DNA of 64,000 nucleotides from the NCBI RefSeq assembly GCF_000293865.2, contig NZ_ALKN02000006.1, positions 1-64,000 on the forward strand. The letters are read 5' to 3'. The notes under the pieces were generated by a model. That model searched no databases, was not told the DNA's origin, and worked only from the letters and a program-made list of their open reading frames with translations. Within the stretch, counting starts at the first letter, position 1, and every line of letters starts with the position of its first letter. Below are positions 1 to 3,400 of the stretch, one piece after another. Made by a program: the position numbers and the translations under genes. The stretch is from Limnohabitans sp. Rim28 (GTDB taxonomy: Bacteria; Pseudomonadota; Gammaproteobacteria; Burkholderiales; Burkholderiaceae_C).

Positions 1-58
1 GGTGTCGGCGGGTGACGATTTGGGCGTACCCCCGCCGTATGAGGAACCCGCCGACACC
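1..58 (+). repeat. Palindromic element, copy A (in-frame in uvrA)
   Basis: Perfect 13-bp inverted arms at 1-13 and 46-58 (GGTGTCGGCGGGT and its complement) enclose a 32-nt loop at 14-45. The loop matches the loop of the element at 1680-1763 at 29 of 32 positions when that copy is read on the minus strand. The arms may continue beyond the window start. In the uvrA frame it is open and encodes a Gly/Ser/Pro-rich stretch in the linker after the first UvrA half. Confidence 0.8.
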
Positions 59-3000
59 GCAGCCTCGCCCCCATAGAAACCCAAACGCTCAGCCACACCA
101 TGCACCTCACCCATGGACTCAGCGTATTCCCGCAGCGCCAGCCCCGTGTGCGATGTCGCGTGTTGGCGCACATCTTCGGGCGTGCCCTCGGCCACGACCA
201 AGCCCCCGGCATAGCCGCCCTCTGGGCCCAAGTCGATCAGCCAATCGCTGGCCCGGATCACATCCAGGTTGTGCTCGATGACGATGAGCGAATGCCCCGC
301 TTCGAGCAGCTTGCGCAATGCGCGCATGAGCTTGGCGATGTCGTCAAAATGCAGACCGGTGGTTGGCTCGTCAAACAAAAACAGCGTGCCCTTGCGCGCC
401 AGGCTCTGGCGACTCTTGGACGCACTTTTGGCCGCCTCGGCCAAAAAGCCAGCCAACTTGAGGCGCTGTGCCTCACCGCCCGACAAGGTGGGCACGGGCT
501 GGCCCAGGCGCACGTATTCCAAGCCCACATCCACAATCGGTTGCAGGGCGCGGATGACTTCGCGGTCTTGCGCAAACAATGCCGCCGCTTCGCTCACGGT
601 CAGCTGCAAAATGTCGGCCACATGGAGGTGCCGCACCGCGCCGCCGATGGCCTGGCGCTCAATGGTGATCTCCAGAATTTCGGGGCGGTAACGCTTACCG
701 TCGCAATCGGGGCAGCGCAAATACACGTCGCTCAAAAACTGCATCTCGACGTGCTCGAAACCCGAGCCGCCGCAGGTTGGGCAGCGGCCATCGCCACCGT
801 TGAAGCTGAACTTGCTGGCGGTGTAGCCGCGCTGACGTGACAGCGGCGCGGTGGCAAAAATCTCGCGGATCGCGTCCCACGCGCCCACATAGCTCACCGG
901 GTTGGATCGTGCGGTTTTGCCGATGGGTGACTGGTCCACAAACACCACATCGCTCAGGTGGTCTGCGCCCAGCAGGCGGTCGTGCGCGCCGGGTGTTTCG
1001 GTGGCTTTGCCAAAGTGGCGCATCAGCGCCGGGGCCAGTACGTCCTGAATCAAACTCGACTTGCCCGAGCCGCTGACGCCGGTGATGGTGACCAAGCGCT
1101 GCAGCGGAAAGTCCACGCTGATGTTTTGCAAGTTGTGCTCGCGTGCGCCTTCCAAAATCAAACGCGGCGTGCTGTCAGACACCATGCGTTTGAAGCCCAA
1201 GCCCACTTGCTTGCGGCCGCCCAGGTAGGCACCTGTGAGCGTGTCGGCCTTGCGCAGGTCGGCGGTGGTGCCGTCAAACACGATTTGCCCGCCGCGCTCG
1301 CCAGGCCCGGGGCCCATGTCGATCATGCGGTCGGCGGCCATCATCACCGCCGGGTCGTGCTCGACCACGACCAGGGTGTTGCCCGCGTCGCGCAGGCGGT
1401 GCATGGCCTGTGTGATGCGGTGCATGTCACGCGGGTGCAGGCCAATGCTGGGCTCGTCCAGCACAAACAAGGTGTTGACCAAGCTGGTGCCCAGGGCGGT
1501 GGTGAGGTTGATGCGTTGCACTTCACCGCCGCTCAATGTGCGGCTTTGGCGGTCGAGGGTAAGGTAGCCAATGCCCACATCGCACAGGTATTTGAGGCGG
1601 GTGGTGATTTCTTCGAGCAGCAGCTGCAGGGCTTTTTGTTCGGCGCTGGGGCCTCGGCTCGTGGGTTCTGCTGAGAGTCGGTCTGCATCAGCGCGGGGGG
1701 CGGGCTCCTCATGAGGCGGGGGTACGCCAAAATCGTCGCCCGCCCCCCGCTCTGACGCAGACCTTGTGGTGGATCGAACGTCAGAAGCCGACACCCGGTC
1801 AAAGAACAAACGCAAGCGGTCCAGCGGCATGATCATCATGTCGTGCAGACTCAAACCCGGCAGCGCCTCCAATTGCGCCCGCGTCCACTTCACGCCCGCA
1901 GGCATGAAGCGCTTTTCTACGGGCAGAACCCCGTCGGCGTCCGAATGGCTGCCAATGCGCCAGAGCAAACTCTCGGTCTTCAAACGCGCCCCGTGGCAGG
2001 TCGGACACTCGGTGTAACTGCGGTACTTGGACAAGAGCACCCGGATGTGCATCTTGTAGGCCTTGCTCTCGAGGTAATCGAAAAAGCGCTTCACGCCGTA
2101 CCACTGGTGGTTCCAGCGGCCCTTCCATTCGGGCGAACCGTGGATCACCCAGTCTTGCTGTGCCTGGGTCAACTTGTCCCAGGCGGTGTCGCGCGGAATG
2201 CCTGCGGCCTCGGCGTGGCGCATCAGGTCGTCCTGGTTCTCTTGCCAGGCGGGTGTTTGCAGTGTCTTGATGGCCCCGGCCCGCAAAGTGAGCTTGGGGT
2301 TGGGAATGACCAGGCCGTAATCGACCCCAATCACCCGGCCAAACCCCCGGCAGGTCTCGCACGCGCCCACGGCCGAGTTGAAGGAGAACATCGATGGGAT
2401 CGGGTCGGTGTAACGTTGGTCGCTGTCGGGGCAATGCAGGCCTGTCGAAAAGCGCCAGATGTCAAAGGCAGGCTCAGGGGAGGAAGAAGCGGAGAAATTG
2501 GGGTCAGACCCCAATTGATCGGCATACACATTCAAGCGGCCACCGCGCTTCAGGGCCACTTCGATGGCTTCAACCACACGGGCTTTTTCGGCATTGCCGA
2601 TGCGAAAGCGGTCGGCGATCACGTCCAGCACCTTGCGCGGGCCGGTGGGTGTGGCCACTTCGCGTTCAGCCTGCACTTTGGTGAAGCCGCTGGCCGAGAG
2701 CCACTGCGCCACTTGCTCAGCGCTGGTGTTGGCGGGCAGCTCGACCGGGAAGGTCAGGTACAAGCGCGGGTCGCCCGCTTGGGCGGCACGCTGGGCCAGT
2801 TCGGCGTAAATCGTGTCGGGGTTGTCGTGGCGCACCGGCTGCGCGGTGTCCTTGTCGAACAACTGACCCAGACGGGCGAACAACAATTTCAGGTGGTCGT
2901 TCAGCTCGGTCATGGTGCCCACGGTAGAGCGTGAGCTGCGCACCGGGTTGGTCTGATCGATCGCAATCGCCGGGGGCACGCCTTCAACTTTGTCCACCGC

Positions 3001-3219
3001 CGGTTTGTCCATGCGGTCCAAAAACTGCCGGGCGTAGGCGCTGAAGGTCTCCACATAGCGGCGCTGGCCTTCGGCGTACAGCGTGTCGAACACCAGGCTC
3101 GACTTGCCCGAACCGCTGGGGCCGGTGACCACCGTGAGTTCACCGGTGCGGATGTCCAAGTCGAGGTTTTTGAGGTTGTGCTGACGGGCACCACGGATGC
3201 GAATGAGACCTTGGGACAT
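1..3219 (-). CDS. uvrA: Excinuclease ABC subunit UvrA, giant two-half form (3' end beyond window)
   Basis: DNA damage recognition ATPase of nucleotide excision repair. It dimerises, loads UvrB at lesions and acts in the cytoplasm. 1073 codons are open from ATG 3219 to the window edge with no stop, already longer than a standard UvrA of about 940-1000 residues. First Walker A GPSGSGKSS at residues 33-41; second-domain Walker A GVSGSGKSS; ABC signatures LSGGEVQR and LSGGEAQR; zinc-binding Cys pairs CETC, CPTC and CPDC. The reading continues past the usual UvrA C-terminus (SHTG) into a linker, as in the roughly 1900-residue Burkholderiales UvrA that carries a second UvrA-like half. The frame contains three in-frame palindromic inserts, at about residues 235-241, 486-514 and 1054-1073. 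The gene is divergent from the DUF294 gene. I saw no CTGT-N8-ACAG LexA box upstream. Confidence 0.93.
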   Translation of the reverse strand, partial: MSQGLIRIRGARQHNLKNLDLDIRTGELTVVTGPSGSGKSSLVFDTLYAEGQRRYVETFSAYARQFLDRMDKPAVDKVEGVPPAIAIDQTNPVRSSRSTVGTMTELNDHLKLLFARLGQLFDKDTAQPVRHDNPDTIYAELAQRAAQAGDPRLYLTFPVELPANTSAEQVAQWLSASGFTKVQAEREVATPTGPRKVLDVIADRFRIGNAEKARVVEAIEVALKRGGRLNVYADQLGSDPNFSASSSPEPAFDIWRFSTGLHCPDSDQRYTDPIPSMFSFNSAVGACETCRGFGRVIGVDYGLVIPNPKLTLRAGAIKTLQTPAWQENQDDLMRHAEAAGIPRDTAWDKLTQAQQDWVIHGSPEWKGRWNHQWYGVKRFFDYLESKAYKMHIRVLLSKYRSYTECPTCHGARLKTESLLWRIGSHSDADGVLPVEKRFMPAGVKWTRAQLEALPGLSLHDMMIMPLDRLRLFFDRVSASDVRSTTRSASERGAGDDFGVPPPHEEPAPRADADRLSAEPTSRGPSAEQKALQLLLEEITTRLKYLCDVGIGYLTLDRQSRTLSGGEVQRINLTTALGTSLVNTLFVLDEPSIGLHPRDMHRITQAMHRLRDAGNTLVVVEHDPAVMMAADRMIDMGPGPGERGGQIVFDGTTADLRKADTLTGAYLGGRKQVGLGFKRMVSDSTPRLILEGAREHNLQNISVDFPLQRLVTITGVSGSGKSSLIQDVLAPALMRHFGKATETPGAHDRLLGADHLSDVVFVDQSPIGKTARSNPVSYVGAWDAIREIFATAPLSRQRGYTASKFSFNGGDGRCPTCGGSGFEHVEMQFLSDVYLRCPDCDGKRYRPEILEITIERQAIGGAVRHLHVADILQLTVSEAAALFAQDREVIRALQPIVDVGLEYVRLGQPVPTLSGGEAQRLKLAGFLAEAAKSASKSRQSLARKGTLFLFDEPTTGLHFDDIAKLMRALRKLLEAGHSLIVIEHNLDVIRASDWLIDLGPEGGYAGGLVVAEGTPEDVRQHATSHTGLALREYAESMGEVHGVAERLGFYGGEAAVSAGSSYGGGTPKSSPADT
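1680..1763 (-). repeat. Palindromic element, copy B (in-frame in uvrA)
   Basis: Inverted arms of 26 bp at 1680-1705 and 1738-1763 (24 of 26 positions pair) enclose a 32-nt loop at 1706-1737. Read on the minus strand the loop is nearly identical to that of copy A, although the arms differ in sequence and length. It lies in the uvrA coding sense, encodes residues such as GDDFGVPPPHEEP, and sits in the variable segment between FFDRV and the helix ending LLEEITTRLKYL. UvrA proteins usually have a short loop there. Confidence 0.85.
2496..2516. repeat. Short GGGGTC-type palindrome within uvrA
   Basis: Ten-base arms AATTGGGGTC and GACCCCAATT flank a single central A. It is read in frame in uvrA as LGSDPNF, between LNVYADQ and AFDIWRF, a loop region. 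It is unrelated in sequence to the two longer elements in the same gene. A one-base variant of the core occurs at 45554-45570. Confidence 0.75.
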
Positions 3220-3400
3220 GCTGGGCTTTGTGGGGTGGAGGCCAAACATTCTAGGGCCGCGCCCCATGCACCTTGAACAAGTCACGTTTGTCCCTTTTTC
3301 TTGACCGGGATCATGAAAACAGACGACTTTTCAGCCGCACAAACCTGGCAAATGACAAAATGAAATCACCGTGTTCACCCAAAAAGAGCGAGGCCAGAAC

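Follow-up and report, generated by a model that had tools for sequence, protein, structure and literature searches.

Palindromic hairpins with a conserved apex and freely varying, self-complementary stems in uvrA and elsewhere in Limnohabitans genomes

How can two stem-loops in a single gene share a nearly invariant loop and stand on arms that differ in sequence, with each pair of arms remaining self-complementary? The question is raised by the beginning of a 64,000-nucleotide stretch of Limnohabitans sp. Rim28 (contig NZ_ALKN02000006.1, positions 1 to 64,000; the whole stretch is called the window below). It opens within uvrA, the gene for excinuclease subunit A, which occupies positions 1-3285 of the minus strand, continues past the window start, and was recognized by its open reading frame and by a match to NCBIfam TIGR00630 (918.8 bits against a cut-off of 729.8). 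Element A (1-68, plus strand, antisense to uvrA) consists of a 5' arm at 1-13, a core at 14-45 and a 3' arm at 46-68; the conserved columns of its core read GAC-GATTT, a small inner hairpin (23-26 with 33-36) and ATGA-GGA. Element B (1680-1763, minus strand, sense to uvrA) has 26-bp arms at 1680-1705 and 1738-1763, complementary at 24 of 26 positions (92%), around the conserved core at 1706-1737 on the same strand. A sequence-only reading of this DNA had noticed that 29 of 32 loop positions are identical between the two (14-45 on the plus strand against 1706-1737 on the minus strand), that the pair adjacent to the loop is T-A in one element and C-G in the other, and that both elements lie in one gene. 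These observations hold, as does the complementarity of the arms, and the single reading frame of uvrA passes through both A and B in frame. The contrast in arm length that it had drawn (13 versus 26 bp) is, however, an artefact: the 13-bp arm of A arises because the window begins at a contig end. Position 1 is the start of contig C6, whose first 55 nt are identical to the end of contig C5; the latter extends beyond this overlap and adds 10 nt to the left arm of A, so that the full stem of A measures 23 bp once the two contigs are joined. In DNA folding against 200 shuffles on both strands, B gave z-scores of -8.05 and -7.17 and A of -4.92 and -4.26; a pattern covering both loops had 0 matches in 100 shuffles.

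To find relatives we used the pattern GACGATTT-N6..20-ATGAGGA, with the reversed pattern as a control. The apex was found in 84 of 90 Limnohabitans genomes and in 5 of 59 others, the latter figure being, by our estimate, about what chance would give; the reversed control had no match in the 149 genomes. The matches listed for a named genome collection include other Comamonadaceae, Malikia, Curvibacter and Mitsuaria. Four matches in viral contigs, none of which had at least 15 of 24 arm pairs, were taken as chance. The pattern also turned up at three loci (L092, L100 and L135) on contigs titled Akkermansia muciniphila (MAG), a label or binning that looks wrong.

The unit that emerges is a conserved apex, GATTT-small hairpin-ATGA, usually set within GAC/GGA, on top of a long stem. 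The arms measure 23-26 bp in 189 of 247 copies, with exactly 25 bp in 88. Across 270 copies, Watson-Crick pairing counted outward from GATTT is at least 84% at positions 4-27 and drops to 74% at position 28, then to 35% at position 29; the stem ends about 28 bp from GATTT. The base preceding GATTT is C in all 270 copies, and GAC/GGA is swapped for GCC/GGC in 17 and for ACC/GGT in 9 of them, as if two G.A-type pairs had been turned into ordinary ones. The inner hairpin of the core covaries too. At loci L404-L409 (genome G450) the cores have ACC/GGG in place of GAC/GGA, and the elements occur as pairs and singles, with ACTACCGGTAG-type inverted repeats in the spacer.

The arms obtained a covariation score of 0.991 over 47 elements, compared with 0.210 after shuffling and 0.112-0.164 when the partners were slid by 1-3 columns. 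The 47 were picked from 65 cluster representatives that paired well to begin with, and their 98.1% pairing is thus partly a matter of choice; it is the shuffle and slide controls that carry the evidence. A covariance model (R1) built from these elements gives 74.4 bits to element B and 52.4 bits to element A, whose 5' end is cut off. It detects the family in 35 of 200 genomes of the bacterial family, in 30 of 141 genera and with up to 23 copies per genome, and in 3 of 300 genomes searched order-wide, both counts being lower bounds owing to strict filters. The sequence of the stem is free, while its pairing and its length of about 28 bp from GATTT are kept. The sequence-only reading had named many copies with covarying arms, in this genome and its relatives, as support for a mobile family, and such copies were found. 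The usual rule for bacterial palindromic repeats, in which the stem is conserved and the loop variable, is inverted here.

Bacterial stem-loop families have reportedly been the subject of earlier work. Neither Rfam, nor the literature, nor the features of REP and RPE elements considered further below gave a match to a named family, in agreement with the earlier statement that none could be assigned. Nothing in the window scored at or above the gathering threshold of an Rfam family; in five related loci tRNA alone exceeded its threshold, and almost all hits below threshold were to miRNA models of long hairpins. A literature search with four core strings returned no match, and one on palindromic sequences in Limnohabitans returned nothing related, judged by title.

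Which strand of the hairpin is constrained can be read from its substitutions. Because a G.T mismatch appears as A.C when the complementary strand is read, the type of mismatch reveals the strand whose fold is under constraint. In 26 clusters of related elements (225 of the 270), one-sided transitions on the core strand comprised 103 of the G.T type versus 18 of the A.C type, with an excess in the same direction for all four parent pairs. Two-sided changes ending in standard pairs numbered 149. Counts among related sequences do not amount to independent events, and as the clusters carry no phylogeny correction, p-values are rough. Damage by C-to-T change on one strand was ruled out as the source of the bias, as A-T and T-A pairs are biased too. 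Inside genes the ratio of G.T to A.C was 18:1 for sense and 43:3 for antisense elements; between codirectional genes it was 33:3 and 49:11, respectively, and in other contexts 41:6. Irrespective of host-gene orientation, then, the bias attaches to the core strand and not to the host transcript, which rules out a function in host mRNA. The constrained form is the core strand itself, either as single-stranded DNA or as an RNA of its own.

The latter option amounts to an explanation in its own right, namely that transcription of the core strand yields a structured RNA, whose G-U pairing is what the wobble bias reflects. The dominance of G.T-type changes would then follow, and by predicted energy the core strand is the better folder in 64 of 65 elements as RNA and in 50 of 65 as DNA. 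However, with the bias on the core strand even in elements antisense to a gene, transcripts of the elements' own would be needed in place of host mRNA; moreover, elements occur in both orientations within one gene, and the Rfam results given above offer no RNA family. On balance we regard an RNA element as unlikely.

Elements occupy gaps between gene pairs of every relative orientation (convergent, divergent and codirectional); of the 295, 68 fall within called genes. Among single elements, antisense orientation outnumbers sense (29:9 within genes and 23:8 between codirectional genes, with few independent sites behind these counts). Where two elements are neighbours within 420 nt (65 pairs), the arrangement is inverted, minus then plus, in 52 cases and direct in 13; the spacing is mostly 107-246 nt in the inverted pairs, three of which are wider, and 141-159 nt in the direct ones. 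Several sites recur across species, among them uvrA, the box genes, rhlE-ybeY and recQ-queC (all gene names except uvrA were assigned by eye from translations). Such recurrence is what would be expected if the elements were functional sites of the chromosome, passed on by vertical descent, with only a superficial likeness to mobile elements. Against this stand the patchy spread over genera noted above, itself a lower bound, the dispersal of one class of copies, described below, over many places of four genomes, and the finding that uvrA of L143 has neither of the two copies in its site-B stretch; we therefore consider inheritance of fixed sites improbable. In a box-gene array compared over seven loci the hairpins align without gaps and the spacers do not, which suggests that these hairpins have a function beyond parasitism. 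No clean empty site with a target duplication was found; one hairpin of a pair differs in presence between species, and deletion could give the same picture.

Further observations concern uvrA and the surroundings of the elements. The uvrA reading frames of L069, L070, L072 and L073 span 2,108-2,177 codons, about twice the 924-residue NCBIfam model, and carry elements at several points along their length. A Curvibacter uvrA (L133, near position 3168) contains a 27-bp palindrome around a different core (GACTT...TGA), possibly a variant subfamily. Tandem partial copies of an arm with its flank lie after the right hairpin in L067 and L261 and beside a type-2 hairpin in L197 and L207, as if one half-element had been copied repeatedly. 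Finally, L072, L155 and L237 hold, together with the elements, hairpins with GTAGGAGC at the foot, which seem to resemble ordinary GTAG REPs.

A candidate for a mobilizing enzyme exists in the form of a Y1 transposase. PF01797 exceeded its cut-off in all eight genomes searched, with one or two hits each (two of the genomes have a second, weaker one), and a homologue of the Y1 protein of G001 occurs in 81 of 90 genomes of the genus, mostly once each. This protein scores 78.4 bits against NCBIfam NF047646 ("REP-associated tyrosine transposase"), just under the cut-off of 80; among solved structures, sequence comparison turned up TnpArep 4er8 as the sole relative, a weak match (E 0.0018). The ~3.3-kb loci of ten Y1-family hits in the eight genomes contained no core pattern beside the gene. 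The sequence-only reading had suggested looking for a linked RAYT-like transposase: a Y1 gene is present, but it is not adjacent to the elements, and the link runs instead through terminal repeats, in one clade. An exact inverted 11-mer, TTGGGGTCAGA, in two copies about 0.8 kb apart flanks the Y1 gene in 14 of the 15 genomes whose locus was fetched, the locus of G020 lacking an exact right-end repeat; literature matches listed for this string are animal or plant work by title. Further inward the terminal repeat varies between clades, as seen in nine loci. In the Limnohabitans clade in which it continues as ..GATCAACATTAATTT, the copies bearing that repeat have the stem and core of the family at their centre, forming MITE-like units of about 160 nt. 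The full repeat of the gene and hairpin copies with the matching inner repeat were found together in G001, G055, G076 and G082 (for G006 and G031 the comparison covers the 11-mer at the Y1 gene, and G077 contributes copies without its gene locus). The terminal repeats of the MITE-type hairpin are those of that clade's REP-type (HUH/Y1) transposase gene.

In these four genomes, MITE-type copies with near-identical terminal repeats occupy many places, and both terminal repeats are present in 52 of the 60 copies sampled from them. The shared repeats suggest that the family is, or has been, mobile, and to this extent they support the earlier reading of the elements as a mobile palindromic family whose structure is kept. 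Repeat-like sequence lies within 350 nt of only 30 of 295 elements. The other 265, including all loci of the window's own genome (A and B among them), have no transposase repeat within that distance. These could be either old insertions whose repeats have been lost, copies that came by another route, or elements with a host function, and the better conservation of hairpins than of spacers in the box-gene array would fit the last option. Elements A and B are site-bound members of the family. The presence of the Y1 gene as a predictor of elements was ruled out, for it occurs in 30 of 32 tested family genomes with elements and in 25 of 25 without a model-found element; the transposase is rather available nearly everywhere and not diagnostic. 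Within uvrA, and separate from A and B, the window also holds a short palindrome, AATTGGGGTC-A-GACCCCAATT, at 2496-2516. Its motif is shared with the terminal repeats that flank the Y1 transposase gene in this genus, and the palindrome is possibly a trace of that transposase system. The same motif is present in several related loci that hold uvrA.

MITE-type and site-bound copies of one hairpin provide a natural contrast by which concerted can be separated from stepwise evolution of the arms. The terms "mobile" and "site-bound" are readings of anatomy, and the two sets differ in age: MITE-type copies are probably the younger ones, which by itself would leave them with fewer one-sided changes. 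No mismatch over 26 bp is seen in 39 of 60 MITE-type copies. When such copies from the same genome are compared (270 pairs with exact repeats), an average of 6.0 of 28 stem columns differ, 5.4 of them on both sides, with a further 1.8 indel columns. The two terminal repeats together differ by 1.67 of 52 nt (355 within-genome pairs, unfiltered), a value that we prefer to the 0.68 of 44 nt biased by an exact-match filter. Spanning trees linking nearest copies yielded 98 two-sided versus 8 one-sided changes among 55 MITE-type copies (links of up to 6 changes; 86 versus 8 at up to 5) and 137 versus 252 among 270 site-bound elements (links of up to 5). The site-bound set includes about a dozen repeat-flanked copies, and leaving out the loci that hold them gives 126 two-sided and 246 one-sided changes in 258 elements; the contrast between the two sets is unchanged across tree variants. 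The two-sided share was 0.927 and 0.960, as against 0.380 and 0.352 after the 3' letters were shuffled.

The simplest account of these concerted arms would be copying or exchange from arm to arm while the element is a single-stranded hairpin. The main rival holds that selection alone suffices, in that only well-folded copies move or work, and two-sided changes accumulate as successive compensatory mutations in long-lived sources, with no arm copying. Site-bound copies do compensate stepwise via G.T intermediates, as the one-sided majority in their trees attests, and one-sided hybrids such as L314 exist among the MITE-type copies. Selection alone accounts less readily for within-genome pairs that differ at a single column, 6 of 8 of which are two-sided, for the equal lengths of G-runs and C-runs in 57 of 59 copies, and for the finding of the loop in both orientations. 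The last refers to three same-genome pairs (L309/L310, L314/L315 and L330/L335) in which the inner 24 nt of the 5' arm are common and the core lies in opposite orientation to the asymmetric outer joint; two same-genome trios with a common inner arm show no orientation difference. Of 52 copies, 46 have an asymmetric outer joint; with the core as reference, the asymmetry runs one way in 32 of them and the opposite way in 14. We take selection alone to be a serious possibility, though not the one that we would back.

The account that we favour instead, at a probability of roughly 0.6, joins these elements: a palindromic hairpin family whose core-strand fold is kept, which is moved as single-stranded DNA by a Y1 enzyme, whose arms are re-templated on the way, and which drifts once bound to a site. 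The working form would be a folded single DNA strand moved in trans by the Y1 enzyme. During the single-stranded passage, one arm would serve as the template for the other, which would erase mismatches between them; in mobile copies the two arms would thus change in concert, and the loop would sometimes be inverted. Immobile copies, such as those in uvrA, would drift stepwise via G.T intermediates, with their fold still partly constrained. In a bolder form, which we hold tentatively and at slightly less than even odds, the family would be a hairpin transposon that rewrites its own stem, one arm being re-made at each passage, so that information would reside solely in the apex and terminal repeats, and stepwise compensation would set in once the element is immobile. 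If so, the sequence of the stem would drift freely between copies while its pairing stays perfect. Concerted arm change in copies that look recently spread makes the upkeep of a hairpin testable, and REP-type transposases and the in-gene palindromes of repair genes are joined in one testable system.

Among known systems, integron attC sites are folded single strands that are recognized by structure while their sequence varies. The present family would resemble them in being a structure-read single strand of variable sequence and appears to differ in how the conserved parts are arranged. With GTAG REPs and REPINs and their RAYT enzymes it shares palindromic hairpins, inverted pairs and insertions in repair genes. 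GTAG REPs, however, conserve the stem (5-13 bp) and an unpaired foot tag and flank the transposase gene, whereas in this family conservation is confined to the apex of a freely varying stem of mostly 23-28 bp, no GTAG-type foot tag was seen by eye in A, B or the copies listed, and no element was seen beside the Y1 gene. CGTC REPs, including RPE-4 and RPE-6 of Rickettsia, are similar in their in-frame gene insertions and in having no adjacent transposase gene; according to Table 1 of PMC3733652 they have a stem of 8-9 bp with CGTC at one end. The family described here has a stem of 23-28 bp with GACG/CGTC at its apical end, and the combination of an end CGTC, an 8-9 bp stem and a CCA-like tail does not occur. 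In-frame copies in uvrA and inverted dimers have their likes in the REP sections of PMC3733652, which is what speaks for assigning the family to a known REP class (GTAG, CGTC or Rickettsia RPE); given the differences in tag, in stem length and in the part that is conserved, we consider such an assignment very improbable. The family is set apart from REP and RPE elements by the features tested, and it looks and probably works like a mobile palindrome.

The closest likeness is to TIRYT, in which, as described in Di Nocera et al. 2013 (PMC3733652), a RAYT-like Y1 gene lies between inverted repeats with the motif GGGGWSAS, and non-coding copies of the repeats occur elsewhere. Here, too, a RAYT-related Y1 (HUH) transposase gene is flanked by terminal inverted repeats, in which GGGGTCAG fits GGGGWSAS, in the 14 of 15 genomes mentioned above, and non-coding copies of the gene's repeats are found elsewhere in the genome. 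The present copies differ in holding a conserved apical core on a variable, complementary stem, a core that is absent from the TIRYT sections of that paper. Ends formed by the transposase repeats are a property of the MITE-type copies, in the proportion given above, and not of A, B or most site-bound elements. Taken together, the MITE-type copies and the Y1 gene appear, by analogy with those sections of PMC3733652, to fit the TIRYT/TIR-repeat class.
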